A stretch of DNA of 64,000 nt from Paenibacillus guangzhouensis (GTDB lineage Bacteria > Bacillota > Bacilli > Paenibacillales > Paenibacillaceae): NCBI RefSeq assembly GCF_009363075.1, contig NZ_CP045293.1:744001-808000 (forward strand), read 5' to 3'. Every line of letters starts with the position of its first letter. The stretch's first letter is position 1. Below the pieces are notes generated by a model that was not told the origin of the DNA, searched no databases, and saw only the letters and a list, made by a program, of their open reading frames with translations. A program made the translations under genes and the position numbers. Positions 36,800 to 54,070 of this stretch are shown here, piece by piece.

Positions 36800-36829
36800 A
36801 AAAATCCTGCATTCGTTGCAGGATTTTTG
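36800..36829 (+). terminator. Terminator after the DUF4349 gene
   Basis: AAATCCTGCA pairs with TGCAGGATTT around a TTCGT-type loop and continues into TTTTTG. It isolates the dcw cluster. Confidence 0.8.
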
Positions 36830-36854
36830 TTGTGAATGGCGAAATAGTATGACT

Positions 36855-36881
36855 GAAGTGGAGGAAAGTGGTGCGAAGTGG
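36855..36881 (+). promoter_or_regulatory. Triple MraZ-box operator
   Basis: GAAGTGG (36855), AAAGTGG (36865) and GAAGTGG (36875) repeat every ten bases with three-base spacers, 30 bp before mraZ. Direct repeats of this AAAGTG(G/T)-N3 form are the described MraZ operator in Mollicutes. The site would let MraZ autoregulate the dcw operon. Confidence 0.75.
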
Positions 36882-36910
36882 TAGATTAGGGGGAAGAGGT
36901 GGAGCGGCCG

Positions 36911-37342
36911 ATGTTTATGGGGGAATACCAGCATACGATTGACGACAAAGGCCGAATGATCATTCCTTCTAAATTTCGCGATGCGCTAGGAACCTCCTTT
37001 ATTATCACTCGCGGTTTGGATAACTGTCTTTTTGTCTATCCACGTTCAGAATGGGAAGTGCTGGAGCAGAAGCTTAAGGCGCTGCCACTGATGAAATCGG
37101 ATGCCCGTGCGTTTACGCGGTTCTTTTTCTCAGGGGCGACAGAATGTGAATTGGACAAACAGGGCAGGGTAAATATACCGAATAATCTGCTGCAATATTC
37201 CAAGCTCGATAAAGATTGTGTGGTGCTTGGTGTATCGAACCGGGTAGAGATTTGGAGTAAGGAGAATTGGGAGGGTTACTTCGAGCAATCGGAGGAATCT
37301 TTCAACGAAATTGCCGAGAAACTGGTTGATTTTAATTTTTAA
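36911..37342 (+). CDS. mraZ: Transcriptional regulator MraZ
   Basis: 143 residues, two AbrB-like SpoVT domains: [21 protein letters not shown] (about 3-23) and [20 protein letters not shown] (about 76-95). MraZ forms a ring-shaped oligomer that binds repeats upstream of its own gene and controls the division/cell-wall cluster. ATG 36911 is chosen to match the family MFMGEYxHxID start. Triple boxes lie just upstream. First gene of the dcw cluster; 41 bp to rsmH. Confidence 0.96.
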
Positions 37343-37383: not shown

Positions 37384-38337
37384 TTGTTTCATCACATCAC
37401 GGTATTAAAAGAAGAGGCTGTCGAAGGCCTCCGCATCAAGCCCGATGGCATCTATGTCGATTGTACATTAGGTGGAGCGGGCCACAGTTCGGTCATCGCT
37501 TCGCAGCTGAAGGCACCGGGACTCTTGATCGCACTGGATCAGGATGATACGGCGCTTGCGAATGCCAAAGTGAAGCTTGCACCTTATGAAGATCGTGTTC
37601 GATTGATTAAGACGAATTTTCGATATATAGAAGAAGTGCTTCGTGATTTGCCTGAAGTTCCACAAGTGGATGGCATACCGCAAGTCGATGGCATCTTGTT
37701 CGATTTGGGCGTATCGTCCCCACAACTGGACGAGGCGGATCGAGGATTCAGCTATAACCATGATGCGCCGCTCGATATGCGGATGGACCAAGAGGGTATG
37801 CTGACTGCGTACGATATTGTCAACACATGGTCTGAGCAGGAGATCGCGAAGATTTTGTTCGAATACGGGGAGGAGAAATTCTCGCGCCGCATTGCGAAGA
37901 ACATCATAGAGGCTCGGAACGCTGCGCCAATCGAGACAACGGGACAGCTCGCTGAGCTCGTGAAGGAAGGGATTCCGGCCGCAGCGAGACGCACGGGTGG
38001 ACATCCCGCGAAGCGTAGTTTCCAAGCGCTCCGCATTGCAGTGAATGATGAGCTTGGTGCATTTGAAGAGGCGTTGAACAAGACGGTACGCTGTCTTGCC
38101 CCTGGTGGCAGAGCGTCTGTTATTACGTTCCATTCGCTTGAGGACCGAATCTGTAAGCAAATTTTTGCACAGTATATCGAAAAATGTACGTGCCCTCCGG
38201 ATTTCCCAATGTGTGTATGCGGCAAGAAGGGGACGTTGAAGTTAGTCAATCGGAAGCCGTATATCCCAAGTCAACGCGAGCTGGATGACAATCCGCGATC
38301 CCGCTCAGCCAAATTACGCATTGCGGAAAAGTTATAG
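37384..38337 (+). CDS. rsmH: 16S rRNA (cytosine-1402 N4)-methyltransferase RsmH
   Basis: 317-residue SAM methyltransferase of the ribosomal P site. [16 protein letters not shown] opens the protein; the SAM motif is [12 protein letters not shown] (about residue 22), and [40 protein letters not shown] and [10 protein letters not shown] are all present. A direct in-frame duplication, PQVDGI twice (37660-37695), sits just before [11 protein letters not shown] start after AGGAGGG. Confidence 0.96.
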
Positions 38338-38356: not shown

Positions 38357-38716
38357 ATGGCATATGTTCGTGGGAATTTAGCGCTAAAAGAAAAGAAGAT
38401 CCAACGCACACCGGAACGGTATCGCGAGACGACGAAAGTTGTGTCGCGGAAGGGGTTACTATCCACGCAGGAGAAGCTGCTCTACCTGTTCACCATTGTT
38501 GTATGCTCCCTTGTTGCTGGTGTAATTATTTGGCGCTATGCGCAAATCTATGATCTGAACATGCAGATGCAGAAGATGAATCGTGAAGTGCAAGTGATGA
38601 AGAAGGAAATTGCTGTGCTCAAGACAGAGAAAGAGAAATTGTCGAGCCCGGCTGCGATCTATGATCGAGCTGTGGCACTTGGTTTTCAGCCCAAGTCCAA
38701 AAAAGCGGGGGATTGA
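38357..38716 (+). CDS. ftsL: Cell division protein FtsL
   Basis: 119-residue bitopic protein. A basic cytoplasmic tail (to about residue 42) precedes one membrane helix (LLYLFTIVVCSLVAGVIIW) and an extracytoplasmic leucine-zipper-like coil (LNMQMQKMNREVQVMKKEIAVL). The FtsL-DivIC-DivIB complex activates septal peptidoglycan synthesis. Position between rsmH and the class B PBP gene is diagnostic, since sequence conservation is low. Confidence 0.9.
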   Translation: MAYVRGNLALKEKKIQRTPERYRETTKVVSRKGLLSTQEKLLYLFTIVVCSLVAGVIIWRYAQIYDLNMQMQKMNREVQVMKKEIAVLKTEKEKLSSPAAIYDRAVALGFQPKSKKAGD

Positions 38717-38766: not shown

Positions 38767-40959
38767 ATGGTGAAGAGAATACGAATACGGACCATGTTTA
38801 TCGGAGGATGTATTACCATCCTCTTTTTTATTCTATTAACGAGAATTTTCTGGGTTCAGGTGGTCAATGCTTCATTCTGGACGGAGAAAGCAAAAGAAAC
38901 GTGGTCGACCACGGTTAAACTAAATGCGGTTCGAGGAACGATCTTCGATCGGAATATGAACACACTCGCCGTTGATGCACCGGCTTATACTGTTGCGGTC
39001 AATCCGAAGCGGATTCATGATTTGCAGATGGAAGAGCCGATTGCTGCCAAGCTGAGCGAGATTCTGAAGAAGCCGCTTCCTGAGATGTTGGCGCTGGTAA
39101 CGGCCAAGAAGGATGATGGAACCTATTATGACCAGCGCGAAGTTCGCCAGGAGGGCTGGAAGATTGATCAGACACTTGCGGATAAGATCAATACCTACAT
39201 CGATGAAATTCGAGAAAAAGTAGGAAAAAACGCGGACGTCGGTATTTACCTGATGAAAGAAACGAAGCGCTTCTATCCGAATGATTCATTAGCTGCACAT
39301 GTTCTTGGCTATACGGATAAGCAAGGGAAAGCTGTTACAGGACTTGAAGCCTTTTTCAATAAGGATTTAGCGGGAACGAATGGTTCCATCTCTTATGATC
39401 AAGACCGCAAAGGATACAAGCTGCCTTCCGCTGACGAGATCTATAAGCCGGAGAAGGACGGTAAAAATTTGGTGTTGACGCTCGACCAGAATATTCAGCA
39501 TTTTACGGAAGAAGCACTCAAGGAAGTGTATAACAAGTATCAACCGATAAGCGCCACGGCAATCGTCGCTGATCCGAGTACGATGGACATTCTTGCGATG
39601 GCCAATCTGCCGAACTATAACCCAAACAAATACTGGGAAACGACCAATCAGAAGAACTTCTATGATCATGCGATCAAATCAGTGTATGAACCAGGCTCGA
39701 CATTTAAGATCATCACACTAGCTGCTGCGGTACAGGAGGGGCTATTCAATCCGAACGAGACCTATATGTCGGGACAAATAAAAGTTGGCAAGTGGCCAAT
39801 ACGTGACCATAAACGCGGAGGTTGGGGTGAAATTACATTCTTAGAAGGACTTAAGCGTTCGAGTAACGTCGCCTTCGTCAAGTTAGGGTATGAACGGTTA
39901 CAGAAGGATAAATTGGAGAAATATTTCGAAGATTTCGGTTTTGGTCAAAAAACAGGCGTACCGTTGTTTGGCGAACAAGCAGGGTTATTGCGATTGGATT
40001 CAAATGCAGCCGTAGCCACAGCAACATTTGGTCAAGGTAGTGTCGTTGTAACACCGATTCAACAGGTTGCAGGTGTCGCGGCTGTTGCGAATGGCGGGAA
40101 GCTCATGGCGCCTCGTCTTGTCAAAGAAATCATTGATCCAACAACCAATACAACGACGAAGATCGAACCGACGATGATCAGACAAGTGATCTCGCCAGAG
40201 ACTTCTCGCAAGGTTGGGGAGTATTTAGAGCAAGTTGTATCCGATAGGAAGATTGGTACAGGTAAGAGTGCATATATTGAGGGCTACCGAATCGCGGGTA
40301 AAACAGGAACGGCACAGAAACCGAAAAAAGGCGGGGGTTACGAAGCGAATAAATATGTCGTATCCTTTATCGGTTATGCACCAGTTGAGGATCCGAAATT
40401 ATTGATTTATGTCATTATTGATGAACCGAATGACCAATATGTAGGCGGTGGTTCAGCAGCCGGTCCTGTATTTAAATCGATTATGAGCCAGTCCTTAAGA
40501 TACCTGGGGATCGAACCTAGCACGGAACCGAAGCCAGAGACAGAAACAGAGAAGAAAGAAGACGCCAAAACAGCTAAACCTGTTGTTATTGTCCCAGATG
40601 TGCTCAAGCAGAAGGTCGTGGATGCGAAGAAGAAGCTCACCGATCAGGGCATCGCGTTTGATACGATTGGCAAGGGGAGCAACATTGTACGCCAAGTGCC
40701 GGATGCGGGAACACCAATCGCTGAAGGGAATCGCGTCTACCTGATTACCGAGGATCCCAAGAACATTACGATGCCGGATATGAAAGGGTCATCGCTTCGA
40801 GATGTGCTTGAGTTCTGCACCTTACTCGATATTTCGTATACCGTTACGGGAGAAGGTTATGTTGTAAGCCAAGAGACGACGAAAGACGGCGATAAAATTC
40901 ATGTGAATTTCAAGCTCGAACCGATGACGGGGACGCCGAGCGACCCTCCGCCCAAATAG
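38767..40959 (+). CDS. pbpB: Septal class B penicillin-binding protein (PBP2B) with PASTA domains
   Basis: 730-residue transpeptidase cross-linking peptidoglycan at the division septum. One N-terminal helix (IGGCITILFFILLTRIFW), then the dimerisation domain with RGTIFDRNMNTLAV. Transpeptidase motifs are the acylated Ser in YEPGSTFKIIT (about 315), SSN in LKRSSNVAFVKLG (about 365) and KTGTAQ (about 515). Two C-terminal PASTA repeats start at VIVPDVLKQKVVDAKKKL and ITMPDMKGSSLRDVLEF. Cytoplasmic start ATG follows AAGGGGATGTTGG. Confidence 0.95.
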   Translation: MVKRIRIRTMFIGGCITILFFILLTRIFWVQVVNASFWTEKAKETWSTTVKLNAVRGTIFDRNMNTLAVDAPAYTVAVNPKRIHDLQMEEPIAAKLSEILKKPLPEMLALVTAKKDDGTYYDQREVRQEGWKIDQTLADKINTYIDEIREKVGKNADVGIYLMKETKRFYPNDSLAAHVLGYTDKQGKAVTGLEAFFNKDLAGTNGSISYDQDRKGYKLPSADEIYKPEKDGKNLVLTLDQNIQHFTEEALKEVYNKYQPISATAIVADPSTMDILAMANLPNYNPNKYWETTNQKNFYDHAIKSVYEPGSTFKIITLAAAVQEGLFNPNETYMSGQIKVGKWPIRDHKRGGWGEITFLEGLKRSSNVAFVKLGYERLQKDKLEKYFEDFGFGQKTGVPLFGEQAGLLRLDSNAAVATATFGQGSVVVTPIQQVAGVAAVANGGKLMAPRLVKEIIDPTTNTTTKIEPTMIRQVISPETSRKVGEYLEQVVSDRKIGTGKSAYIEGYRIAGKTGTAQKPKKGGGYEANKYVVSFIGYAPVEDPKLLIYVIIDEPNDQYVGGGSAAGPVFKSIMSQSLRYLGIEPSTEPKPETETEKKEDAKTAKPVVIVPDVLKQKVVDAKKKLTDQGIAFDTIGKGSNIVRQVPDAGTPIAEGNRVYLITEDPKNITMPDMKGSSLRDVLEFCTLLDISYTVTGEGYVVSQETTKDGDKIHVNFKLEPMTGTPSDPPPK

Positions 40960-41033
40960 CTTGTTCTAACCCCTGTTTGTCCTGAATAGTCATGTTATGA
41001 AACCATTCATGATGGGACAGGGAGGGGTACGCT

Positions 41034-42971
41034 GTGAAAAGTTCAGGCGTCACAATACGGCGCAGAATTATGTTGTCATTAATCGTGATAACCGTAGGAT
41101 TTGCTGCCTTGATGGGCAGGCTAGGGTTTGTGCAATTGTATAAGGGAAGTGAACTCTCCAAGGAAGCGGAAGATTCCTGGCGTCGTGAAATCCCGTTCTC
41201 TGCGAAGCGCGGCGAGATCTTGGATCGCAATGGCGTTCGACTCGCCTACAATATCAGCTCACCAAGCATATTGGCTATTCCTGTTCAAATTAAGGACAAG
41301 GAAGCTACAGCTGCAGCATTGGCGAGTGTTCTAGGGACAACGAAGGAAACGATGCTTAAATATGTCTCGAAGAAAGGTTCATTTATCGTCAACATCCAGC
41401 CGGCAGGGCGTAAAATTACGCTAGAGAAAGCACAGCAAGTTCGGGACTTGAACCTGAAAGGCATCGTCGTCGCGGAAGATAACAAACGGTATTATCCTTT
41501 TAACGAGCTTGCAGGGCAAGTGTTGGGGATTGTGGGGCTCGACGGCGGGCTTACAGGCGTAGAGAAGGTCTACGATGATAAGCTGCAAGGTCAACGTGGG
41601 AACGTGTCATTCTTATCGGATGCAGCCGGTCGTCAAATGCCGAATTCATCTGAGAAGTACACGGAGCCGCAAGATGGATTGAATTTACAATTGACACTGG
41701 ACAAACATCTACAGACAATAGTAGAGCGGGAACAAGATCAAGCGATGGCTCAATTGAACCCTAAATCGATTACAACCATCGTCATGAATCCGAAAAACGG
41801 AGAGATCCTTGCGATGTCTAGTAAGCCTGGTTATGACCCGGGAAATTATCGTGATTACGCGCCTGAGTTGTATAATCGAAATCTACCTATTTGGAGTACG
41901 TATGAGCCGGGATCAACGTTTAAGATTATAACCCTGGCTGCTGCTGTTCAAGAGAAGAAAGTCAATTTGAAGTACGACCATTTCTACGATCCGGGTTATG
42001 TCGATGTGAGCGGGGCCAAGCTCCGCTGCTGGAAGAAAGGCGGCCACGGAAGCGAGACGTTCATGCAAGTCGTAGAGAACTCTTGCAACCCGGGGTTCGT
42101 GGCACTAGGACAACGCCTCGGCAAGGACAAATTGTTCGAGTACATAAAGAATTTTGGGTTTGGCCAGAAGACAGGCATTGATCTGAACGGGGAAGCGACA
42201 GGGATTCTCTTTAAGTTATCCCGTGTAGGTCCGGTTGAGCTTGCGACGACGGCTTTTGGACAGGGGGTATCGGTGACACCGATCCAACAGGTCGCTGCCG
42301 TATCTGCAGCGATTAATGGAGGATACTTGTATCAGCCTCATGTTGGCAAACGATTGATTCAACCTGAGACAGGGACGGTTCTTCAAGATATGGAATCAGA
42401 ACCCGTCCGTCAAGTAATCTCAGAGGAGAGCTCCAAAATCGTTCGGGAAGCACTGGAGAGTGTCGTCGCCAAAGGGACGGGGGGCAAAGCGTTTATCGAT
42501 GGGTATCGTGTTGGTGGAAAGACGGGAACGGCACAAAAGGTTATCAATGGAAGATACTCACCGAATGAGCACATCGTATCTTTTATTGGCTTCGCGCCAG
42601 CGGATGATCCGCAATTGGTCGTCTACACCGCAGTCGATAATCCGCAAGGGATTCAATTCGGGGGTTTGATCGCTGCGCCGATTGTTCGCAACATTATGGA
42701 AGATGCGTTACAATATATGGGCGTTCCGAAACGAAAGGATCAGATCGCGCATCAATATAAACCGGATGAAGTGCCGCTTGTTACGGTGCCTGATATGAAG
42801 GGGATGACCTTGGAGGACATCTATCAAGACATGAATACCAACTTCAATCTTGCCAAATCGGGTACGGGCAAAGTTGTCATCGCCCAAGCGCCTAAACCGG
42901 GAGAACGCGTGGAGAAAGGTTCCACCATTCGGATTTATATGGGCAGTGAAGCTGCCTTGCCGAATGAATAA
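41034..42971 (+). CDS. spoVD: Stage V sporulation protein D, class B PBP for spore cortex
   Basis: 645 residues, near the length of Bacillus SpoVD. SpoVD cross-links spore cortex peptidoglycan in partnership with SpoVE. Motifs are an N-terminal helix, KRGEILDRNGVRLAYNI, acylated Ser in YEPGSTFKIITLAAAV (about 295), SCN in VENSCNPGFVALG (about 350) and KTGTAQ (about 498), then a single PASTA domain (VTVPDMKGMTLEDIYQDM). GTG start behind GGGAGGGG. Adjacent to pbpB and upstream of murE as in Bacillus; the single PASTA repeat and length favour SpoVD over a second vegetative PBP. Confidence 0.92.
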   Translation: MKSSGVTIRRRIMLSLIVITVGFAALMGRLGFVQLYKGSELSKEAEDSWRREIPFSAKRGEILDRNGVRLAYNISSPSILAIPVQIKDKEATAAALASVLGTTKETMLKYVSKKGSFIVNIQPAGRKITLEKAQQVRDLNLKGIVVAEDNKRYYPFNELAGQVLGIVGLDGGLTGVEKVYDDKLQGQRGNVSFLSDAAGRQMPNSSEKYTEPQDGLNLQLTLDKHLQTIVEREQDQAMAQLNPKSITTIVMNPKNGEILAMSSKPGYDPGNYRDYAPELYNRNLPIWSTYEPGSTFKIITLAAAVQEKKVNLKYDHFYDPGYVDVSGAKLRCWKKGGHGSETFMQVVENSCNPGFVALGQRLGKDKLFEYIKNFGFGQKTGIDLNGEATGILFKLSRVGPVELATTAFGQGVSVTPIQQVAAVSAAINGGYLYQPHVGKRLIQPETGTVLQDMESEPVRQVISEESSKIVREALESVVAKGTGGKAFIDGYRVGGKTGTAQKVINGRYSPNEHIVSFIGFAPADDPQLVVYTAVDNPQGIQFGGLIAAPIVRNIMEDALQYMGVPKRKDQIAHQYKPDEVPLVTVPDMKGMTLEDIYQDMNTNFNLAKSGTGKVVIAQAPKPGERVEKGSTIRIYMGSEAALPNE

Positions 42972-43043
42972 CTTAAATTTTTAAATGGATGCATTGAAAT
43001 GCGCAAGGTGTAACACTTAAGGAAAATGACGGAGGGATTAGAC

Positions 43044-44534
43044 ATGTTAGTGAAAGAGCTCGTGTCGCGGTTAACTACAGCACAAATTGAAGGAGACGGG
43101 GATATTCAGATAACGGGAGTCCAGACGGACTCACGTAAGGTGCAACCAGGGGACTTGTTCATTTGTTTGCCTGGTCATACCGTCGATGGGCATGCATTCG
43201 CTGACAAGGCTGTTGCCCAGGGTGCAGTGGCACTGGTGGTCGAACATAAGCTCAATGTTCCGGTAACGCAAATTGTGGTGAAGGATTGCAGATATGCGAT
43301 GGCGGTCTTCGCAGATTATTACTATGGATCGCCTAGCAAGCAGCTGAAAATGATCGGTGTGACGGGGACGAATGGCAAGACGACGACGACGTACCTGATC
43401 GAACGGATTCTAGAAGACGCGAAATTCCGTCCTGGCATCATCGGTACGATTCAGATGCGTTATGCTGGACAGCAAATAGAGATGAGCCGTACAACGCCGG
43501 AAGCGCTAGAACTGCAGCAATCGTTGCACGCCATGGTTGAAGCGGGTACTGACGCGTGCGTGATGGAGGTGTCGTCCCATGCGCTCTTGCAAGGACGTGT
43601 CAAAGGATGCCGGTTCCGTACTGCGATTTTCACGAACTTGACGCAGGATCATTTAGACTACCATAAGACGATGGAAGAATATAAAGCAGCCAAAGGGCTC
43701 TTGTTCTCGCGTCTTGGGAATGATTTTGCAGAATCGCCGGATCAACATACGTATGCGATACTGAATGCGGACGATGCGGCAAGCGACTACTTCCGTTCCA
43801 TTACTTCGGCAGAAGTGATTACTTACGGTGTAGATCGGCCGTCAGATGTGCAGGCAAGTCAGATTAAGATCACATCCAAAGGTACGAAGTTCCATGTTAC
43901 ATCATTCCGAGGCAGTGCAGATATTGAGCTGCGTATGGTCGGAAAGTTCAATGTCTACAATGCGCTTGCAGCGATTAGTGCGGCACTTGTAGAAGGGATT
44001 TCCTTGGAGCAGATTAAAGCAAGTCTTGAATCGATCGCGGGTGTGGATGGGCGTGTCGAAGCGGTGGATGCAGGACAACCGTATGCAGTTATCGTAGATT
44101 ATGCGCATACACCGGATGGGCTAGAAAATGTTCTTAAGACTGTGAAGGAATTCGCTACGGGCCGCATCCTCTGTGTCTTCGGATGTGGCGGAGATCGTGA
44201 CCGTACGAAACGGCCGATTATGGGCCAGATTGCTGCAGAGTATTCGGATCATGTTCTCGTTACTTCGGATAATCCTCGCACAGAGAATCCGGATCTCATC
44301 TTGAAAGATATCGAACAAGGAATCGTAGATTATACATCGCGCCAATCGACCTATGAGCTGATTGTGGATCGCAGATCAGCGATACAAAAGGCTATTGAAA
44401 TGGCAAGCTCTCACGATGTAGTATTGATTGCGGGGAAAGGGCATGAAACCTACCAGATCATCGGTCAAGAGACGTTTGATTTTGATGATCGAGAAGTTGC
44501 TAAAGAAGCGATAAGGGGCCATGAATGTGATTAA
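43044..44534 (+). CDS. murE: UDP-MurNAc-L-Ala-D-Glu:meso-diaminopimelate ligase MurE
   Basis: 496-residue Mur ligase adding the third stem-peptide residue. ATP motif MIGVTGTNGKTTTTYLIERI (about 105-125), carbamylated-Lys region and the diagnostic specificity motif SDNPRTENPD near residue 410. The DNPR motif indicates meso-diaminopimelate, not lysine, so the wall is of the DAP type. ATG 43044 has GGAGGG seven bases ahead; an in-frame ATG 18 bp earlier lacks a site. Overlaps murF by 14 bp. Confidence 0.96.
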   Translation: MLVKELVSRLTTAQIEGDGDIQITGVQTDSRKVQPGDLFICLPGHTVDGHAFADKAVAQGAVALVVEHKLNVPVTQIVVKDCRYAMAVFADYYYGSPSKQLKMIGVTGTNGKTTTTYLIERILEDAKFRPGIIGTIQMRYAGQQIEMSRTTPEALELQQSLHAMVEAGTDACVMEVSSHALLQGRVKGCRFRTAIFTNLTQDHLDYHKTMEEYKAAKGLLFSRLGNDFAESPDQHTYAILNADDAASDYFRSITSAEVITYGVDRPSDVQASQIKITSKGTKFHVTSFRGSADIELRMVGKFNVYNALAAISAALVEGISLEQIKASLESIAGVDGRVEAVDAGQPYAVIVDYAHTPDGLENVLKTVKEFATGRILCVFGCGGDRDRTKRPIMGQIAAEYSDHVLVTSDNPRTENPDLILKDIEQGIVDYTSRQSTYELIVDRRSAIQKAIEMASSHDVVLIAGKGHETYQIIGQETFDFDDREVAKEAIRGHECD

Positions 44535-45927
44535 GAAAACATTGCGAGAGATTGCTAATGCATGCGGCGGGAGACTGTCGGATTTACAATATGAAGGATT
44601 ACAGGTTCACGCTGTCGAGACGGATACGCGTAAACTTCATGAAGGCTGCTTGTTCGTTCCTTTTGCCGGGGAGCATTTTGACGGCCATGATTTTGTTGGC
44701 AAGGCGCTTGAGCAAGGCGCACAAGCTGCCTTCTGGCCGGAACATCGTGAACAACCTGAAGTGAACGGGGCATTGATTCTTGTCGATGACCCATTACTTG
44801 CGTTACAGCGTCTAGCTGCCTATGTGCTTCGGGAATCGGGTGTTCGAGTCGTTGGCGTGACAGGCAGCAATGGTAAGACAACGACGAAGGATATGATCGC
44901 TGCCGTCCTTAGCGCGAAATATAAAGTTCATAAGACGAACGGAAATTACAATAATCATATAGGTCTGCCGCTCACGATTCTTCAGATGGAACCCGAGACG
45001 GAAATTATTGTGCTGGAGATGGGGATGAGCAGCCGCGGTGAGATTGAGCTGTTATCGTCAATCGCATGTCCTGAGGTTGCCGTCATTACGAATATCGGCG
45101 ATGCTCATTTGCTACAGCTTGGCTCTCGGGAAGAGATTGCTAGAGCGAAGGTGGAGATTATCAGTTCCTTGCGCGAAGGTGGCCTACTCATTTCGAACGG
45201 CGATGAGCCTCTTATCGCACAAGTGCTGGAGGAAGCTTCGACCGTCAAGCCGAAACAGATGGCGCAGATTCGATTTGGCTTCGAGCAGGCTAATGATATT
45301 TATGCGACAGGGGTTATGCTGAATGCGCGTGGAACGATATTTACGACGTCTGTATCGCATCAATCCAGTTACTTCATCCCGCTGTTAGGTCAGCACAATG
45401 TAGCGAATGCACTGGCTGCGATGGCGGTTGCCGAATACTTTGGTGTTCCAGAGCAAGAGATCGATAAGCAATTACGGAATCTTGTTGTAACGGGGATGCG
45501 TACGGAAGTGGTCGAAGGGGTAACAGGTCTTACGATCATAAATGACGCGTACAATGCAAGCCCGACAGCCGTTCGCGCGGCGCTGCAGCTGTTCGATTTG
45601 ATGAGCGGTTTCCGCCAGAAAGCAGTCGTGCTTGGCGATATGTTAGAATTAGGACCAGAAGAAGTGAATTTGCATCGTCAGATTGGTCATGAATTCAAAG
45701 GAATCAAAATAGATTACTTGTATACCTATGGACGACTGGCTGCGGAGATTGCATCTGCTGCATCTGCCTATTTACCTGCGGATCACGTCAGAGCATTTCA
45801 AGATAAAGAAGAGCTTGCAAAGGCGCTTGTCTCCGTATTAACACCGCGTGATCTTGTTCTTGTGAAAGGTTCAAGAGGGATGAAGCTCGAAGAAGTGGTA
45901 CGATCGCTAAGAGATACCGCGTTATAA
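44521..45927 (+). CDS. murF: UDP-MurNAc-tripeptide:D-Ala-D-Ala ligase MurF
   Basis: 468-residue Mur ligase completing the pentapeptide. ATP motif VVGVTGSNGKTTTKDMIAAVL (about 111), KTNGNYNNHIGLPLTIL just after it, EMGMSSRGEIELL, and NDAYNASPTAVRAAL in the C-terminal half are family hallmarks. Start ATG 44521 is within the end of murE; GTG 44527 in the same frame is possible. AAGGGG precedes. Confidence 0.96.
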   Translation: MNVIKKTLREIANACGGRLSDLQYEGLQVHAVETDTRKLHEGCLFVPFAGEHFDGHDFVGKALEQGAQAAFWPEHREQPEVNGALILVDDPLLALQRLAAYVLRESGVRVVGVTGSNGKTTTKDMIAAVLSAKYKVHKTNGNYNNHIGLPLTILQMEPETEIIVLEMGMSSRGEIELLSSIACPEVAVITNIGDAHLLQLGSREEIARAKVEIISSLREGGLLISNGDEPLIAQVLEEASTVKPKQMAQIRFGFEQANDIYATGVMLNARGTIFTTSVSHQSSYFIPLLGQHNVANALAAMAVAEYFGVPEQEIDKQLRNLVVTGMRTEVVEGVTGLTIINDAYNASPTAVRAALQLFDLMSGFRQKAVVLGDMLELGPEEVNLHRQIGHEFKGIKIDYLYTYGRLAAEIASAASAYLPADHVRAFQDKEELAKALVSVLTPRDLVLVKGSRGMKLEEVVRSLRDTAL

Positions 45928-46007
45928 TAATTGTGTTTTTCTGATTCATGAATGGTTGTAATCGCAAGGATATGCGGTTTTGATCGTATTTTAGGAGTGT
46001 GACGGTA

Positions 46008-46970
46008 GTGGACTTTAAATTGGTATTACTTACGATCGGGGTTTCGTTTCTGTTAGCGGTGATTGCAGGACCATTATGTATTCCGCTGCTCCGAAGATTG
46101 AAATTCGGTCAGCAGATTCGACAGGATGGCCCTCAAGGGCATTTGAAAAAAGCAGGTACGCCGACAATGGGCGGTATTATTATTCTACTTGCTTTTACAC
46201 TTAGCTTCTTGAAGTTCTCCGTGATGAATACGGACTTTATTGTCTTGCTCGTGGCGACATTAGGGTTCGGTCTTGTTGGATTCCTGGATGACTATATTAA
46301 AATTGTGTTCAAAAGATCGCTTGGCTTAACGGCAATGCAGAAGTTGTTCGGTCAACTGCTCTTTGCTGTCATCATATGTGCTCTCTTAATTTCGAACAAT
46401 CATAGTACGGTGATTGCGATACCGGGCACTTCGGTGGCTTGGGATTTCGGCTGGTTCTACTATGTGTTCATTACGTTAATGATGCTCGCGATCAGTAATG
46501 CAGTGAATTTCACGGATGGGCTAGACGGCTTGTTATCAGGCGTTAGCGCCATTGCATTCGGGGCCTTTACGGTCGTTGCGATGCAAGTTGAAGGACATGC
46601 GTCTGCTATCGCAGCCGCAGCCATGATTGGGGCCGTACTCGGTTTTCTTGTATATAACGCGCATCCTGCCAAAGTGTTCATGGGGGATTCCGGTTCCTTG
46701 GGAATTGGCGGCGCGATTGCTGCGATTGCGATTTTGACGAAAACCGAGCTGTTGTTTATTATTATCGGAGGCGTATTTGTTATTGAGATGCTGTCCGTTA
46801 TTCTTCAGGTCGGTTCCTTCAAATTGAGAGGCAAGCGGATTTTTAAGATGAGTCCGATCCATCATCACTTTGAATTGTCAGGCTGGTCAGAATGGCGCGT
46901 CGTTATTACGTTCTGGATCGTAGGCCTGCTGCTCGCAGGGCTTGGACTTTATATCAACAAGGGGTTGTAG
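46008..46970 (+). CDS. mraY: Phospho-MurNAc-pentapeptide transferase MraY
   Basis: 320-residue polytopic enzyme that moves phospho-MurNAc-pentapeptide to undecaprenyl phosphate, making lipid I. About ten helices; catalytic motifs [48 protein letters not shown] and [17 protein letters not shown] 46008 is preferred because AGGAG lies ten bases upstream, whereas the GTG at 45999 directly abuts it. Confidence 0.96.
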
Positions 46971-46973
46971 TGC

Positions 46974-48407
46974 ATGTTGTTACCAGAAAGCTATCGAGGC
47001 CAAGACGTCGTTGTTCTTGGTCTTGCCAAAAGCGGCTTGCAAGTCGCGAAAGTACTCGCCAAGTGGGGCGCGAACGTGATCGTCAATGATAAGAAAGAAC
47101 GAGACCAGAGTCCCGAAGCTGACGAATTAGAAGCTTTGGGCATTTCTGTTATTTGCGGAGGGCACCCGGACGAACTAATTCACCCCGGCGTGGCCCTTGT
47201 TGTCAAAAATCCGGGAATTCCCTATAGCGTCAAGCCGCTGCAGCAAGCGTTGGAACTTGGAATCGAGATTGTCACGGAAGTGGAAGTCGCTTCTTACATA
47301 TCTGCTGCGCCGATGATTGGGATCACGGGCTCAAATGGGAAAACAACGACCACCACGTGGGTGGGTAAAATATTAGAGCATGCCGGGAAGCATCCGATCG
47401 TGGCGGGGAACATTGGTACGCCGCTTGTTCAGGCTGTCGCGAAGGCAACGGCTGAGAACCATATGGTTGTGGAATTAAGCAGCTTCCAATTAAAAGGGAC
47501 GAGTGCGTTCCGTCCGCATATCGCGTGCCTGCTGAATGTTGCAGAGACCCATCTGGACTATCATGGTTCGATGGACGATTATATTGGATCCAAAGCGAAA
47601 ATATTCGCTAATCAGACGGATTCTGATTTTGCTGTGCTTAACATGGATGATCCGGTCTGCCGGAGACTGGCTGCTGATGTCTCTGCACAAGTGCTGCCTT
47701 TCTCAGGCAAGGAGCGTCTTGCATTCGGTGTGTATGTTGAACCGCCATATGCCGAAGAAGCAGACGTGAATGCAGGAGAGCATGTCATTCGACATGTCGT
47801 CTACCGAGATCATGAGGCGCAGGTTCATCCGATTATCGAAGTCGATCACATCGGTCTGCCAGGTCGCTACAATGTAGATAACGCACTAGCAGCTTCGGCA
47901 ATCAGTATCGCTGCAGGCGTAAGCCCTTCGGAGCTTCGAGCTCCGCTTGCCGAATTCCGCGGTGTAGAGCATCGCTTGGAATTTGTTGAGGTGAAGAACG
48001 AGGTTGTCTATTACAACAATTCAAAAGCAACGAATGCCATTGCAACGATTATGGCGCTGCAAGCGTTCAAAGAAGATATTATCCTCATTGCTGGCGGTCT
48101 TGACCGAGGTCTGGATTTTCACGATCTGATTCCAGCGCTGCAAGCGCATGTCCGAGGGATTGTGACCCTTGGCGAGACGCGTCACAAGTTAGCGTCTGTT
48201 GCGGAAAAAGCGGGGATATTGGATATTAAAACCGTCGATACTGTGGAAGATGCGGCGGATACGCTGCGCATGGCCGTCCGGCAAGCTGCTCAGCTTGCTA
48301 AACCTGGAGACATCGTTCTTCTCTCACCGGCATGCGCTAGCTGGGACATGTTTGCTTCCTATGAACAGCGTGGACGAATTTTTAAAGAGGCCGTGCATAA
48401 TCTTTAA
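46974..48407 (+). CDS. murD: UDP-MurNAc-L-alanine:D-glutamate ligase MurD
   Basis: 477-residue Mur ligase adding D-Glu. N-terminal Rossmann-like VVVLGLAKSGLQVAKVLAKWG, ATP motif MIGITGSNGKTTTTTWVGKIL (about 112), MVVELSSFQL, AETHLDYHGSMDDY, NNSKATNAIATIMAL and IAGGLDRGLDF. Starts three bases after mraY. Confidence 0.96.
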   Translation: MLLPESYRGQDVVVLGLAKSGLQVAKVLAKWGANVIVNDKKERDQSPEADELEALGISVICGGHPDELIHPGVALVVKNPGIPYSVKPLQQALELGIEIVTEVEVASYISAAPMIGITGSNGKTTTTTWVGKILEHAGKHPIVAGNIGTPLVQAVAKATAENHMVVELSSFQLKGTSAFRPHIACLLNVAETHLDYHGSMDDYIGSKAKIFANQTDSDFAVLNMDDPVCRRLAADVSAQVLPFSGKERLAFGVYVEPPYAEEADVNAGEHVIRHVVYRDHEAQVHPIIEVDHIGLPGRYNVDNALAASAISIAAGVSPSELRAPLAEFRGVEHRLEFVEVKNEVVYYNNSKATNAIATIMALQAFKEDIILIAGGLDRGLDFHDLIPALQAHVRGIVTLGETRHKLASVAEKAGILDIKTVDTVEDAADTLRMAVRQAAQLAKPGDIVLLSPACASWDMFASYEQRGRIFKEAVHNL

Positions 48408-48458
48408 TAGGGGGGCATGTTCGAGCCCTCACATTTTAAATGTAAGGGTGTGCCTGCT

Positions 48459-49556
48459 ATGTCAAAAACTCGTTCCGCGCCAGATATTTGGCTGATCTTC
48501 TCGATCCTCGCGCTGCTCGGCATCGGAATGGTGATGGTGTACAGCGCCGGAGCTGTTGTGGGATTCCACGCGCACGGCGACTCGTTCTATTTTGTGAAGC
48601 GCCAGTTGCTATTTGCTGTACTTGGGTTAGTTGCGATGTATTTTACGATGAATACAGACTATTGGGTCTGGAAGAAGTATGCGAAGGTGGGGCTGCTCAT
48701 CTGCTTCGCATTGCTCGTCATCGTGTTGATCCCGGGGATCGGGGCTGTACGGGGTGGTGCACGAAGTTGGCTCGGAATTAGCTCCTTCGGTATCCAGCCC
48801 TCTGAGTTTATGAAGCTGGCGATGATTCTGTTTCTATCGAAGCTGCTCGCAGATCGCCAGAAGGAATTGGATTCGTTCGTCCGAGGCTTGCTGCCGCCGC
48901 TTGGCATTATGGGGCTTGCCTTTGGACTTATTATGCTGCAGCCCGATCTCGGAACAGGTACGGTGATGGTCGGAGCTTCACTAATCGTGATTTATACGGC
49001 AGGAGCACAGATACGGCATCTGGTTTCGCTAGCGATGGTAGGTGTTGCGGGTTTTGTTGGTCTTGTTCTAGCTGCGCCGTATCGACTTGCTCGGATAACT
49101 TCGTTTCTAGACCCATGGAGTGATCCGCTCGGCGCGGGATACCAGATCATTCAGTCCTTATATGCAATTGGGCCAGGCGGTTTTGTTGGACTCGGGCTTG
49201 GCATGAGCCGACAGAAGTACAGCTACGTACCGGAGCCGCAGACGGACTTCATTTTCTCGATCCTAGCGGAGGAACTTGGATTTATTGGCGGGATGACCGT
49301 TTTATTATTATTTCTTATTTTAGTCTGGCGCGGGATGCGCGTAGCGATGACGATATCCGATCCGTTCGGAAGTTTCCTGGCGGTTGGCATCGTCGGTATG
49401 TTCGCTGTGCAGGTCATCATTAACATTGGCGTCGTCATCGGTCTGATGCCGGTAACGGGAATTACGCTGCCATTAATCAGCTATGGAGGTTCTTCTCTGA
49501 CGTTAATGCTGACCGCGTTAGGCATTTTACTCAATATATCCCGTTACGCGAGGTGA
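48459..49556 (+). CDS. spoVE: SEDS-family lipid II polymerase SpoVE/FtsW
   Basis: 365 residues with about ten helices. SEDS glycosyltransferases polymerise lipid II together with a class B PBP. Motifs are MVYSAGAVVGF, GARSWLGISSFGIQPSEFMKLAM, MLQPDLGTGTVM, the catalytic-loop region YQIIQSLYAIGPGGFVGLGLGMSRQKYSYVPEPQTDFIFSILAEELGF and the C-terminal GLMPVTGITLPLISYGGSS. ATG 48459 gives the SpoVE-like MSKTRSAPD start and a good AAGGGTG site. Position between murD and murG is that of spoVE in Bacillus. Whether it also serves vegetative division depends on an ftsW elsewhere. Confidence 0.93.
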   Translation: MSKTRSAPDIWLIFSILALLGIGMVMVYSAGAVVGFHAHGDSFYFVKRQLLFAVLGLVAMYFTMNTDYWVWKKYAKVGLLICFALLVIVLIPGIGAVRGGARSWLGISSFGIQPSEFMKLAMILFLSKLLADRQKELDSFVRGLLPPLGIMGLAFGLIMLQPDLGTGTVMVGASLIVIYTAGAQIRHLVSLAMVGVAGFVGLVLAAPYRLARITSFLDPWSDPLGAGYQIIQSLYAIGPGGFVGLGLGMSRQKYSYVPEPQTDFIFSILAEELGFIGGMTVLLLFLILVWRGMRVAMTISDPFGSFLAVGIVGMFAVQVIINIGVVIGLMPVTGITLPLISYGGSSLTLMLTALGILLNISRYAR

Positions 49557-49561
49557 GTGTC

Positions 49562-50674
49562 ATGCGAGTTGTACTCAGCGGCGGCGGCACCGGAGGACAT
49601 ATCTATCCGGCTGTTGCGATTGCGAGACAATGTCAAGCAGAACATCCAGATACAAAAATACTATACATAGGGACAACGAAAGGGCTAGAGAGCACGTTGG
49701 TTCCGAAAGAAAATATACCATTTGAATCGATTGAAATTACAGGATTCCGTCGTAAGCTGTCTTTAGATAACGTGCGGACGGTGCTGCGTTTCATTCAAGG
49801 GGTTAACCGTTCGAAGAAGTTGCTGCAGCAATTCAAACCGGACGTTGTAATCGGAACGGGAGGGTACGTATGCGGACCGGTCGTCTATGCGGCTTCGAAG
49901 CTGGGGATTCCGACGCTCATTCATGAGCAGAATGCAATCCCAGGGCTGACGAACAAATTCCTAAGCCGCTACACCGATACGGTAGCTCTGAGCTTCCCAG
50001 AATCGAAGGAGCATTTTGGTAAAGGCAAACATGTCCTATACACAGGCAATCCGCGTGCTACAGCCGTATTTAAGGCTAATCGTCGTAAAGGATACGACGT
50101 GTTAGGACTTCCTGAAGGACGTCGGGTCGTGCTGGTCGTTGGCGGTAGCCGCGGCGCCAGAGCGATCAATGATGCGATGGTTCAGATGGCACCTGCGCTT
50201 GCACATCTATCCGATGTGCATTTCGTCTATGTGACCGGCGAGAGTTACTTTGCAAGCACGAAGGAACGTATCGAGCAAGCTGTTAATCCGATGCCTAAGA
50301 ATCTGCAAGTCTTGCCTTATATCCATAACATGCCGGATGTGCTCGCTGCGACATCGCTTGTCATCGGCCGTTCCGGCGCGTCTTCCCTAGCGGAGCTAAC
50401 GGCGTTAGGCATACCGTCGATCCTGATTCCTTCACCGAACGTGACGAACAATCACCAGGAAGCGAATGCACGCTCCTTAGAGCGAGTGAATGCAGCAGAA
50501 GTGATTCTCGAGAAGGATCTCGATGGCGATAAGTTGTTCGCTCGGGTGGAAGCGATAATGAAAGATAAAATTCGGTTCGAGCAAATGTCACAAGGTGCGC
50601 GATCCCTTGGCCAACCGGATTCAGCAGAAATGATTGTACGTGAATTGCAGCGTTTAGTGAAAAACAATAAATAA
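49562..50674 (+). CDS. murG: UDP-GlcNAc:lipid I N-acetylglucosamine transferase MurG
   Basis: 370-residue GT28 glycosyltransferase making lipid II on the inner membrane face. N-terminal LSGGGTGGHIYPAVAIA, TGGYVCGPVVYAASKLGIPTLIHEQNAIPGLTNKFL and the C-terminal donor site VIGRSGASSLAELTALGIPSILIPSPNVTNNHQEANA. ATG 49562 has GAGGTGA five bases ahead; that site contains the spoVE stop. Confidence 0.96.
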   Translation: MRVVLSGGGTGGHIYPAVAIARQCQAEHPDTKILYIGTTKGLESTLVPKENIPFESIEITGFRRKLSLDNVRTVLRFIQGVNRSKKLLQQFKPDVVIGTGGYVCGPVVYAASKLGIPTLIHEQNAIPGLTNKFLSRYTDTVALSFPESKEHFGKGKHVLYTGNPRATAVFKANRRKGYDVLGLPEGRRVVLVVGGSRGARAINDAMVQMAPALAHLSDVHFVYVTGESYFASTKERIEQAVNPMPKNLQVLPYIHNMPDVLAATSLVIGRSGASSLAELTALGIPSILIPSPNVTNNHQEANARSLERVNAAEVILEKDLDGDKLFARVEAIMKDKIRFEQMSQGARSLGQPDSAEMIVRELQRLVKNNK

Positions 50675-50863
50675 GTAAAAACATCAAGAATTTGCACACA
50701 AGAGAAGAACTTAGGCGATTGTCACACTCCCCCTCTGTCTGACATAAGATACTCTATAATCGTGACAGACATTCATGAGTTCCGGTTTATCATACCGATT
50801 TGGAGTCGTATTCATGCCTGATGACGCTTCTCTTATTGAGGCATAGAAGGAGGGTTCATTAGA

Positions 50864-51769
50864 ATGCAGCCGTTTTTATCTGAATTAGCATCCGCGAATG
50901 TCGGTAAGGTGCTCTACCATGAGCCGTTAGCAAATTATACGACTTGGAAAATCGGAGGGCCTGCAGACGTCCTCATCATACCGGGCGGAAAAGAACAACT
51001 GGTGAAAACGGTCAAGCTGCTGCATAAGCACGGAATTCCTTGGACTTCAATTGGTAAAGGATCCAATATGCTCGTGACCGATAAAGGCATCCGAGGTGTT
51101 GTGATCAAACTAGGAGAAGGAATGGATCACATCCAATTTACCGGCGATGAGGTTCGTGTAGGCGGTGCGTATTCTTTTATCACACTTAGTATTAAGGCGG
51201 GTAAAGAAGGTCTATCGGGCTTGGAATTTGCAGGGGGCATTCCGGGAACGGTCGGCGGCGCTGTATACATGAATGCAGGAGCTCATGGATCAGATGTGTC
51301 ACGTATATTAAAGGAAGCTGAGATTGTACTGGAGACCGGGGAATTGGTACGGTATACCACGTCGGATATGCAATTTGCTTATCGACACTCCATATTGCAA
51401 GAGGTGAAGGGGATCGTTCTTGAAGCCACCTTCAAACTCGAACATGGGGATCGGAAAGAAATCGCGGCCGCGATGGCATCGTACAAAGAACGTCGAAGAA
51501 AAACACAGCCTTATCAGTTGCCATGCTGTGGCAGCGTATTTCGAAATCCGCCGAATGATTTCTCTGCGAGACTGATTCAAGAAGCGGGCTTGAAAGGTTA
51601 TCGTGTTGGGGGCGCTGAAGTATCGACGTTACACGCCAATTTCATTGTGAATACCGGGCAAGCGACAGCTAGAGATGTTCTCACCCTAATCGAGGAGATA
51701 AGGCAGACGATCCAGTCGAAGTATGGGATTTCGTTAGTGCCGGAAGTGTTGGTCGTGGGTGAGCGGTAA
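50864..51769 (+). CDS. murB: UDP-N-acetylenolpyruvoylglucosamine reductase MurB
   Basis: 301-residue FAD enzyme reducing UDP-GlcNAc-enolpyruvate to UDP-MurNAc. FAD-binding motifs YTTWKIGGPADVLI, WTSIGKGSNMLVTD and GLEFAGGIPGTVGGAVYMNAGAHG. The catalytic Ser is in CCGSVFRNP (about 227) and the C-terminal Glu region is VPEVLVVGER. It follows a 189-bp gap after murG that contains possible promoter signals, then AAGGAGGG. Confidence 0.96.
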   Translation: MQPFLSELASANVGKVLYHEPLANYTTWKIGGPADVLIIPGGKEQLVKTVKLLHKHGIPWTSIGKGSNMLVTDKGIRGVVIKLGEGMDHIQFTGDEVRVGGAYSFITLSIKAGKEGLSGLEFAGGIPGTVGGAVYMNAGAHGSDVSRILKEAEIVLETGELVRYTTSDMQFAYRHSILQEVKGIVLEATFKLEHGDRKEIAAAMASYKERRRKTQPYQLPCCGSVFRNPPNDFSARLIQEAGLKGYRVGGAEVSTLHANFIVNTGQATARDVLTLIEEIRQTIQSKYGISLVPEVLVVGER

Positions 51770-51785
51770 ACTCGGAGGTGATACA

Positions 51786-53069
51786 TTGGACAAATTGGTG
51801 ATTGAGGGAGGGAGACCCCTATCAGGAACCATTCGTATCCATGGAGCGAAAAATGCCGCATTGCCGATTCTTGCAGCAAGCCTTCTGACGCGTGGAAGAA
51901 TACAGCTTCATAATGTTCCGAAATTGCTGGATATACAGGTTATGCTGCAAATCTTAGAGGATATTGGTTGCGAGACGCAGCATTCAGGCGATACCGTCGT
52001 GATTGATACAACCGCAGCGAATTCCTCGCATGTTCCGGAATCCTTAATGAAGCAAATGCGGTCTTCCATATTCTTGATGGGTCCGCTGCTGGCTCGCTTT
52101 GGGGAAGTGCAGATCTACCAGCCGGGAGGCTGCGCAATCGGCGAACGCAAGATTGATCTGCATCTCTGTGGACTCATGGAACTCGGTGCTCAAATATTGC
52201 AGACGGATCAACGCATTATTTGCAGAGCGGAACAACTGATAGGCGCGAATATCCATCTAGATTTCCCAAGCGTTGGCGCGACGGAGAATATTATGATGGC
52301 GGCTGTCTTGGCCAAAGGTACGACAGTCATCACGAATGCGGCAAGAGAACCGGAAATCCAGGATTTGCAGAATTTCTTGAATCGGTTAGGCGCCCGAATT
52401 ATCGGAGCTGGAACAGATACGATCACAATTGTGGGGGTTGAGGAGCTGACGCCTTGTTCGTACGAGGTGATTCCGGATCGCATTGTCGCAGGGACGTTTA
52501 TGATCGCTGCAGCAGCCACGCGAGGCAATGTCACGCTAACACATGTAAATGCATCGCATTTAACATCTCTCATCCATGTACTCAGGCGGGCCGGTGTTCA
52601 AGTGGCAGTAGACGATGATATAATACAAGTGAGCAGCGAGACAAGACCGCTTGCGGTTGAACGCATCGTAACTTCGCCTTACCCGGCATTTCCGACAGAT
52701 TTACAATCTCAGATCATGGTACTGCTGTCGTTGTCGGACGGATTTAGCATTATGAAAGAGACGATTTTTGAAGGTCGATTTAAGCATGTCGAAGAACTGA
52801 CCCGGATGGGTGCAGATATTCGGACGGATCTAAATTCTGCTTTTATCCGCGGCGTGAACCGATTGTTCGGAGCAACGGTGGAAGCAACCGACCTACGCGC
52901 AGGAGCAGCGCTTGTCATTGCTGGACTCTGTGCGCAAGGGAAGACAGTCATCGAACAAGTGCATCATATTGACCGCGGCTATGATCAGATTGAGCGATTA
53001 TTTACGAGTCTTGGGGCAACGATATATCGTGAATCGCAAGTAGCAAGGCAGCTTGACTTTGCAAATTAA
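51786..53069 (+). CDS. murA: UDP-N-acetylglucosamine 1-carboxyvinyltransferase MurA
   Basis: 427-residue EPSP-synthase-fold enzyme, first committed step of peptidoglycan synthesis. IEGGRPLSGTIRIHGAKNAALPILAASLL at the N-terminus, the fosfomycin-target Cys in QPGGCAIGERKID (about 117) and DLRAGAALVIAGL near the end. TTG 51786 is chosen because GGAGGTGAT precedes it directly. Placement inside the dcw cluster between murB and divIB is common in Paenibacillus-type genomes. Confidence 0.95.
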   Translation: MDKLVIEGGRPLSGTIRIHGAKNAALPILAASLLTRGRIQLHNVPKLLDIQVMLQILEDIGCETQHSGDTVVIDTTAANSSHVPESLMKQMRSSIFLMGPLLARFGEVQIYQPGGCAIGERKIDLHLCGLMELGAQILQTDQRIICRAEQLIGANIHLDFPSVGATENIMMAAVLAKGTTVITNAAREPEIQDLQNFLNRLGARIIGAGTDTITIVGVEELTPCSYEVIPDRIVAGTFMIAAAATRGNVTLTHVNASHLTSLIHVLRRAGVQVAVDDDIIQVSSETRPLAVERIVTSPYPAFPTDLQSQIMVLLSLSDGFSIMKETIFEGRFKHVEELTRMGADIRTDLNSAFIRGVNRLFGATVEATDLRAGAALVIAGLCAQGKTVIEQVHHIDRGYDQIERLFTSLGATIYRESQVARQLDFAN

Positions 53070-53127
53070 CCGCCTTCATCCCCTTCGCTCGCTGGAGGGG
53101 ATCGAGGCTTTTATAGGTGGTATGGAT

Positions 53128-53892
53128 ATGGCTAAGCAGCTTCCCGTATTAAAAGAGAAAAAAGTAAAGAAGAACACCAGCAGAAAGCTGCTTCTGATCC
53201 TGCTGCTTCTTTTTGTCGTCATTTTAGCCGTTCTATTCTTTCGATCTTCCGTAAGCAAGATTTCAGAGATTCAGATTAAGGGTTACCACATGATCACCAA
53301 AGAGGAGATATTGCTGAAAAGTGGACTTCATGTTGGCGATCAATTTTTTGGGACAAGCAAGGAAACCATCAGCGAGCGAATTCGAAAAATCCAAGCCGTT
53401 GAAGATGTGAAGATTGATCTTCAGTTCCCTGGGGTCATTCAGATTAATGTTCAAGAATTTCCTGCGGTAGCGTATCAAATATCACAAGGGAACGGACAGA
53501 TTACAGGTATACTTTCTAATGGGACGAATGTCTTACTGCAGCAGGATCATGTCCTCGTAGAGAAGCCTATTCTAACCCAGTGGAAATCGGGCGATCCGTT
53601 ACTTGCCCAACTGTGCAAGCAGCTCGCGATGATCCCTGATGAACTGCTCACGGATATATCCGAGATTATCCCCGATCCTACGAAGGCGTACCCGGATCGC
53701 ATCAAGATGTATACTCGTTCACAGTTCGAGATTACGACATCCATATCGCTATTAAAGGATAAGGCAGAGTACTTGAATAAAGTGATTGAGACACAACAGC
53801 CGGGGCTGATTACGATGCTGGCAGCAGACACGTATAAGCCGTTCGACCGCGCAACATCGGACATTGAACCGGAAAAAGAGACTACTCAATAA
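53128..53892 (+). CDS. divIB: Cell division protein DivIB/FtsQ
   Basis: 254-residue bitopic protein. A Lys-rich cytoplasmic tail precedes a membrane helix (LLLILLLLFVVILAVLFF, about 22-40). The POTRA domain starts at ISEIQIKGYHMITKEEILLKSGL, followed by the FtsQ beta domain (PAVAYQISQGNGQITGILSNG) and an acidic tail. Works with FtsL and DivIC. ATG 53128 has AGGTGG seven bases ahead. A small hairpin (53078-53102) lies in the gap after murA. Confidence 0.9.
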   Translation: MAKQLPVLKEKKVKKNTSRKLLLILLLLFVVILAVLFFRSSVSKISEIQIKGYHMITKEEILLKSGLHVGDQFFGTSKETISERIRKIQAVEDVKIDLQFPGVIQINVQEFPAVAYQISQGNGQITGILSNGTNVLLQQDHVLVEKPILTQWKSGDPLLAQLCKQLAMIPDELLTDISEIIPDPTKAYPDRIKMYTRSQFEITTSISLLKDKAEYLNKVIETQQPGLITMLAADTYKPFDRATSDIEPEKETTQ

Positions 53893-53945
53893 TGTGAAAA
53901 AATGTTAGAATGGTAGTTATAGGTTTGCCCGTCTTTTTTTGAGTT

Positions 53946-53963
53946 TTGGTAAACATTTACCAA
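53946..53963. other. Perfect 18-bp palindrome upstream of ftsA
   Basis: TTGGTAAA, CA, TTTACCAA: eight-base perfect arms with a two-base centre, about 60 bp upstream of the ftsA promoter candidate. It is not followed by a T run on the plus strand, so it looks like a protein-binding site and not a terminator. I cannot name the regulator. Confidence 0.45.
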
Positions 53964-54000
53964 TAAAAAAATTGTAGAAAAAAGAGGGAATACATAAAAT

Positions 54001-54030
54001 TTGTTGAATATGTACAGAGTGTCATACAAT
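54001..54030 (+). promoter_or_regulatory. Candidate promoter for ftsA-ftsZ
   Basis: TTGTTG at 54001-54006 and TACAAT at 54025-54030 with an 18-bp spacer. The same -10 area reads CATACAAT, the sporulation SigE -10 consensus, but its -35 match is poorly spaced. Confidence 0.4.
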
Positions 54031-54070
54031 ATTACTATTATACTTAGGTAGAAATAGGAGGTGCCACAGA

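Follow-up and report, generated by a model that had tools for sequence, protein, structure and literature searches.

What controls transcription at the head of the dcw cluster in an endospore former? The question is raised by a stretch of DNA from Paenibacillus guangzhouensis (64,000 nucleotides, hereafter the window), in which three short direct repeats lie just before mraZ, the first dcw gene. The repeats have the appearance of an operator for MraZ, a regulator of cell division, and a candidate promoter for sigma-H, the sigma factor of starvation and sporulation, lies ahead of them. We consider it probable, on the strength of sequence comparison, that this is a sigma-H-type dcw promoter with a MraZ operator over its start.

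The MraZ boxes and the cluster they precede

mraZ (36911..37342, + strand) starts with ATG, encodes 143 aa, and is identified by Pfam PF02381 (E 4e-52). It is followed on the same strand by mraW/rsmH (37384..38337; PF01795, E 8e-126) and by an ftsL-like gene (38357..38716), which is assigned by position and has weak DivIC/FtsL matches, both under the Pfam cut-off. The rest of the cluster, seen as ORF translations, occupies 38767..56489 of the + strand. From sequence features and gene order, we take these ORFs to be pbpB, spoVD, murE, murF, mraY, murD, spoVE/ftsW, murG, murB, murA, divIB, ftsA (at 54071), and ftsZ (at 55365). Upstream of mraZ, a DUF4349 gene is broken into two frames that overlap (35794-36267 and 36177-36767); in another genome of the same genus (L090), both parts lie in one open frame. 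The split reflects either a frameshift or a sequencing error.

MraZ is a ring-forming protein whose Arg15 has a DNA-binding role. Alignment of the window MraZ with that of E. coli indicates that Arg15 is conserved, and the N-terminus was also aligned to solved MraZ. The window protein matches solved MraZ chains (9qlr, 9qlg, 9r4j, 9sx6, 9sz7, 1n0e, 1n0f, and 1n0g) with an E of 1.7e-26, and it is 78-86% identical to Paenibacillus proteins among the best 80 of 589 loci, which are thus close relatives. Together with samples taken from the order, the class, and the phylum, these 80 named loci supplied the mraZ upstreams: 306 upstreams, of which 271 are unique over their last 90 nt, plus 20 class regions added without de-duplication, for 291 in all. 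The class sample has 103 loci from the 168 MraZ-positive genomes among 200 drawn, and the phylum sample has 60 loci from 235 MraZ-positive genomes among 249; one region (G164) is offset by a few bases. Shuffles, here and below, are first-order Markov resamples.

The initial annotation described RAAGTGG repeated three times with an exact 10-bp period about 30 bp before the mraZ start, and this description is accurate. Box 1 (GAAGTGG, 36855..36861), box 2 (AAAGTGG, 36865..36871), and box 3 (GAAGTGG, 36875..36881), all on the + strand, are separated by AGG and TGC, so that the full array spans 36855-36881, and 29 nt lie between box 3 and the ATG at 36911. A first-order Markov model predicts 4e-7 copies of the exact triple for the two strands of the window and 5e-5 for the genome. 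With no mismatches, even the two-box pattern is present in the window only as the two overlapping pairs of this array. When up to 3 mismatches are allowed, the triple has 1 occurrence in the 6.95-Mb genome, and the reversed-pattern control has 2. The head of the dcw cluster is thus the sole three-box target that this test reveals. Further MraZ targets in the genome were sought and set aside: there is no other three-box match at up to 3 mismatches, and two-box matches at up to 2 mismatches are not enriched genome-wide, numbering 137 versus 298 for the reversed control. When 36700-36950 was scanned with Rfam, three matches came back, every one under its gathering score.

The array is highly conserved. 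Of the 291 Bacillota upstreams sampled, 284 have three or more GTGG spaced at exactly 10 bp before mraZ, a pattern found in 2 of 13,550 shuffles. Among the 271 unique upstreams, 264 have the three boxes (127/128 in the order, 82/83 in the class, and 55/60 in the phylum), and box 2 is preceded by three letters that are A in 95-98% of the loci of the order. Loss of the repeats in close relatives had been named as one observation that would count against an operator; the boxes are kept in all except one of the 128 order-level upstreams. In three loci of Bacilli (L204, L212, and L213), there are five GTGG ahead of mraZ, and one of the later steps is 11 bp. At least three repeats with a 10-bp period, a position adjoining mraZ at the head of the dcw cluster, and conservation in relatives are therefore all found here.

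Similar arrays are known elsewhere. In E. coli, MraZ boxes at the mraZ promoter were reportedly described by Eraso in 2014. The mraZ upstream of E. coli K-12 (NC_000913.3) reads GTGG-N6-GTGG-N6-GTGG, and so, as in Paenibacillus, three GTGG at 10-bp steps lie just past the promoter. However, E. coli has a sigma-70-like promoter there (TTGACA/TAAACT), whereas the Paenibacillus promoter is predicted to be of the sigma-H type. In Mollicutes, direct repeats of AAAGTG[T/G] precede mraZ (Fisunov 2016, as described in PMC8475190), and in M. genitalium, according to the same account, these repeats are said to occur nowhere else in the chromosome (PMC8475190). The proposed likeness to the Mollicutes operator holds, since the RAAGTGG boxes match both these direct repeats, as PMC8475190 gives them, and the E. 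coli mraZ upstream. Mollicutes are wall-less, and the cluster of M. genitalium has four genes, whereas Paenibacillus has its operator at the head of a full dcw cluster and behind a predicted sigma-H-type promoter. In B. subtilis, likewise an endospore former, MraZ is reported to control ftsL (White 2022, J Bacteriol, as cited in PMC11021899 and PMC11796246), so that there too its action is on the head of the dcw cluster. The three repeats thus look like a known kind of MraZ operator, putative here, and as such the array is ordinary and expected. From it we infer, as the initial annotation did, that MraZ may autoregulate the dcw cluster.

A possible fourth, degenerate box was also suggested just downstream of box 3. 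An extra GTGG does exist, but not at the place indicated. That place, AGGG at +30 from box 1 (36888..36891, + strand), is weakly supported: in 284 three-box loci, an exact GTGG is located at +41 in 121, at +40 in 22, at +30 in 11, and at +31 in 4, with each remaining offset from +24 to +59 represented in at most 10. A G-rich RDGG is present at +30 in 81 of 127 order loci. In the window, the +41 GTGG (36899..36902, + strand) lies 21 bp past box 3 and overlaps the Shine-Dalgarno sequence AGGTGG (36897-36902). An extra GTGG downstream of box 3 is found at +41 in 53/78 cases in the order, 47/84 in the class, and 21/56 in the phylum, and the best single distance of the same GTGG to the start codon accounts for at most 26, 20, and 14, respectively. 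Because the +41 counts exceed those of any single start-codon distance, this GTGG appears to keep its distance from the boxes more strictly than its distance from the start codon. For 90 of the 121 GTGG at +41, the start codon is 13-15 nt away, and so a role in the ribosome site is also possible. Judged by these counts, the GTGG at +41 is a better candidate for a 'fourth box' than the +30 place.

A predicted sigma-H promoter and the upstream terminator

The two elements of a sigma-H promoter are spaced 11-12 nt apart. Ahead of the boxes on the + strand lie a predicted sigma-H -35 element, GCAGGATTT (36818..36826), and, after an 11-nt spacer, a predicted -10 element, GGCGAAATA (36838..36846); the position of the latter places the expected transcription start region at 36850..36853. 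Together, GCAGGATTT-N11-GGCGAAATA (36818-36846) agrees with 14 of 15 positions of the sigma-H consensus, RNAGGAWWW / RNNGAATWW (quoted in PMC8510167), with the single mismatch being A for T in GAAT.

The bare motif AGGAWWW-N14/15-GAAW occurs in the window at chance level (3 found versus 2.3 expected), and so the case for the promoter rests on its place and its conservation. Agreement at 12 or more of the 15 positions, with no further requirement, is present in 28.8% of shuffles. A core site is defined here as one that has AGGA and GAA and agrees with the consensus at 12 or more of the 15 positions. Such a site is present in the mraZ upstreams of 116/128 order loci, 46/103 class loci, and 50/60 phylum loci, versus 1.2% of shuffles. 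Families in which one or more members have it number 22 of 35 in the class and 46 of 55 in the phylum. The spacing is equally regular. The best site has a spacer of 11 in 125 of 128 order loci, and alignment of 88 order loci on box 1 reveals 78 AGGA/GAA pairs whose starts are 21 nt apart; 7 of the 88 have no such pair at any distance from 17 to 23.

The spoVG gene of the same order served as a control. Its upstream contains RNAGGAWWW-N11/12-RNNGAA in 25 of 30 genomes, 24 of these with N11 (reversed control, 0/30), and the site typically reads GAAGGAWTT...GTGGAATTA. With a matrix built from spoVG sites only, 141 of 221 mraZ upstreams exceed the 99% background; the window mraZ site scores 12.3, between the 99% (7.8) and 99.9% (13.7) backgrounds. 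Sigma-H itself (TIGR02859, over the cut-off) is encoded in 30/30 genomes, among them the window's genome, where the gene (G000:C1:4864585-4865166) scores 370 bits. The window's genome also has Spo0A.

The predicted -35 element is shared with a neighbor. A strong intrinsic terminator, composed of a stem, a short loop, and a T tract, follows the DUF4349 gene (36800..36828, + strand, from RNA folding); the fold of 36790-36835 has an energy of -17.2 kcal/mol and a z of -6.05. Its 10-bp perfect stem reaches the AGGA of the -35 element, which lies within the 3' arm and T tract of the terminator. In a test that counts perfect stems only, a stem reaches AGGA in 66 of 116 order core sites, and no perfect stem of at least 6 does so in 50/116 core sites of the order, 19/46 of the class, and 47/50 of the phylum. 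Thus, as judged by this stem count, the predicted -35 element in the Paenibacillus order is often (66/116) made from a terminator arm. It nevertheless seems to be kept in its own right, since AGGA and its spacing persist in the core sites that have no such stem. The initial description of the locus as a MraZ operator is supported but incomplete, as it took in neither the +41 box nor the sigma-H-type promoter and its overlap with the terminator.

Distribution of the site and other division promoters

In the class, the core is present in 44/88 Spo0A-positive versus 1/12 Spo0A-negative genomes (Fisher p 0.0055), a contrast that is phylogenetically weak because 8 of the 12 Spo0A-negative genomes are from one family. 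Agreement at 13 or more of 15 positions gives 59/88 versus 2/12 (Fisher 0.0012). Three genomes with weak Spo0A matches were left out of the main contrast, and counting them as positive changes the first figure to 45/91. Genomes G274, G313, and G295 were counted as Spo0A-negative on the basis of their absence from the Spo0A-positive list; one of them, G295, keeps a 15/15 site. Both Spo0A-negative genomes sampled in the phylum (80% and 90% complete) also keep the core. All 12 Spo0A-negative class genomes retain the MraZ boxes, so the operator and the type of promoter are separable.

Some Bacilli have a different arrangement. In 36 of 103 class loci there is a TATAAT-like hexamer (at least 5/6) and no sigma-H core, and the core is absent from families f13 (0/8), f27 (0/7), and f40 (0/4). 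In several class loci (L193, L200, L202, L203, L208, L230, L237, L241, L249, L273, and L274), TATAAT stands in place of the sigma-H GAAT; these loci mostly share the same AGGATTT arm and the MraZ boxes. The presence of TATAAT versus GAAT in some Bacilli families is, from the sequences, an apparent sigma-factor switch. A TATAAT-like hexamer is found in 25 of 128 order loci as well, in 14 beside the core and in 11 alone, and thus a sigma-A promoter may coexist with the sigma-H site or replace it.

The mraZ site is not the only candidate of this type in the window. Before ftsA there is a second sigma-H-like site, AGAGGGAAT-N11-GTTGAATAT (53983..54011, + strand), with AGGG rather than AGGA. The layout RNAGGN-N13/14-RNNGAA is present upstream of ftsA in 30/30 relatives, 27 of them with AGGG (reversed control, 0/30). 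The spoVG matrix rejects the window ftsA site, whose score of 3.2 is below the 99% background of 7.8, and we keep it as a weaker, putative sigma-H-like site. In B. subtilis, a sigma-H-dependent ftsAZ promoter lies before ftsA (as cited in PMC12421865), and the window site is likely its counterpart. The resemblance extends to function in that, according to this citation, sigma-H raises division-gene transcription early in sporulation; in Paenibacillus, however, there is also a sigma-H-type site at the head of the cluster, with a MraZ operator on top. Near the window end, a further sigma-H-type site, GCAGGAATT-N11-GTCGAAATG (62960-62988), precedes divIVA (ATG 63039), and RNAGGAWW...GTCGAAW is found there in 22/30 relatives, 20 with N11 (reversed control, 0/30). 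The TGTCGAA of the window divIVA site is a perfect Spo0A-box core as well. Given the conservation of these sites in relatives, three division promoters of the order (mraZ, ftsA, and divIVA) look sigma-H-like.

Alternative readings and a model for the dcw head

Other readings of the region ahead of the boxes can be weighed against these data. The boxes could be a MraZ operator behind an ordinary sigma-A promoter, with AGGATTT being only the 3' arm of the terminator and GAA incidental. Such a reading would fit the stems that reach AGGA in more than half of the order core sites, the TATAAT-like hexamers located just before box 1 in many Bacilli, the TTGACA/TAAACT of E. coli mraZ, and the chance-level frequency of the bare motif in the window. 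Yet AGGA and its spacing are still kept in the 116 of 212 core sites that have no perfect stem, spoVG has the same layout, and no sigma-70-like site at 9/12 was found on the + strand of 36000-38000; we regard an ordinary sigma-A promoter here as unlikely. Another reading concerns TGGCGAA (36837-36843), inside the predicted sigma-H -10 element, which differs by one mismatch from the Spo0A-box core TGTCGAA. The mraZ upstream would then be primarily a Spo0A target, probably repressed, instead of or besides a sigma-H promoter. PMC3485338 gives G2, C4, and G5 as the contacted bases of the 0A-box core, all of which TGGCGAA retains; TGNCGAA is found at the -10 position in 57/116 order core sites, and in the B. 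subtilis spo0A gene a 0A box (0A4) overlaps the -10 of the sigma-H promoter Ps, as reported in PMC12090719. Outside the order, however, TGNCGAA is found in 1/46 class and 0/50 phylum core sites, all of which retain AGGA and GAA. In addition, TG precedes NNGAA at spoVG too, and so it fits the sigma-H -10 element of this order. A primary role as a Spo0A target therefore seems doubtful to us.

The G-rich region could instead have been conserved as a G-quadruplex that controls mraZ. A quadruplex has been reported in the S. aureus mraZ promoter and is said, in PMC11796246, to be conserved across bacteria. A quadruplex, however, needs neither the strict 10-bp phase nor the A-runs before GTGG, both of which are conserved, and the three window boxes contain only GG doublets, making this reading very improbable. 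Conversely, the S. aureus G-quadruplex reported downstream of the mraZ promoter (PMC11796246) may itself be the MraZ box array.

If the dcw head does have a sigma-H-type promoter overlaid by a MraZ operator, its control could proceed as follows. RNA polymerase with sigma-H would recognize GCAGGATTT and GGCGAAATA and open the promoter, and transcription would start a few bases before box 1. MraZ, made from the first gene, would dock on the three boxes, which are 10 bp apart and would thus present one helix face, with the +41 GTGG as a possible extra contact. Located on the first some 30 transcribed bases, MraZ would block initiation or promoter escape, and the bound protein would limit its own expression and that of the downstream dcw genes. 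What the sequences show is the repeats, with their phase, uniqueness, and conservation, and the promoter motif, with its spacing and distribution; MraZ binding, dependence on sigma-H, the start site, repression, and a promoter that drives the whole cluster are what we infer from them. In such an arrangement, sigma-H could switch on, and MraZ could restrain, the division genes at one spot.

A wider proposal is held with less assurance, although we lean toward it. In much of the endospore-forming Bacillota, the dcw head would have a sigma-H promoter overlaid by a MraZ operator, so that sigma-H, active at entry into starvation or sporulation, and MraZ, a brake on division, compete at a single site. 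Several Bacilli families would have swapped this promoter for a sigma-A TATAAT and kept the operator; sigma-H-type promoters would precede all of mraZ, ftsA, and divIVA in the Paenibacillus order; and in the window, a mraZ -35 element derived from the neighbor's terminator would tie the beginning of the cluster to the end of the gene before it.

MraZ operators in E. coli and Mollicutes are known, and MraZ control of ftsL is reported in B. subtilis; what appears new is the predicted combination of the operator with a sigma-H-type promoter. A search of open-licence literature for a sigma-H promoter at mraZ or the dcw head found none, and subscription papers may have one. The dcw-encoded peptidoglycan synthases of sporulating Firmicutes are specialized for sporulation, as described in PMC10693644, and a sigma-H-type promoter at the head of the dcw cluster would be the regulatory counterpart to such synthases. 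If correct, it would help to explain the joint rise of septum and cell-wall synthesis at the switch to polar division, and it would make a role for MraZ in sporulation directly testable.
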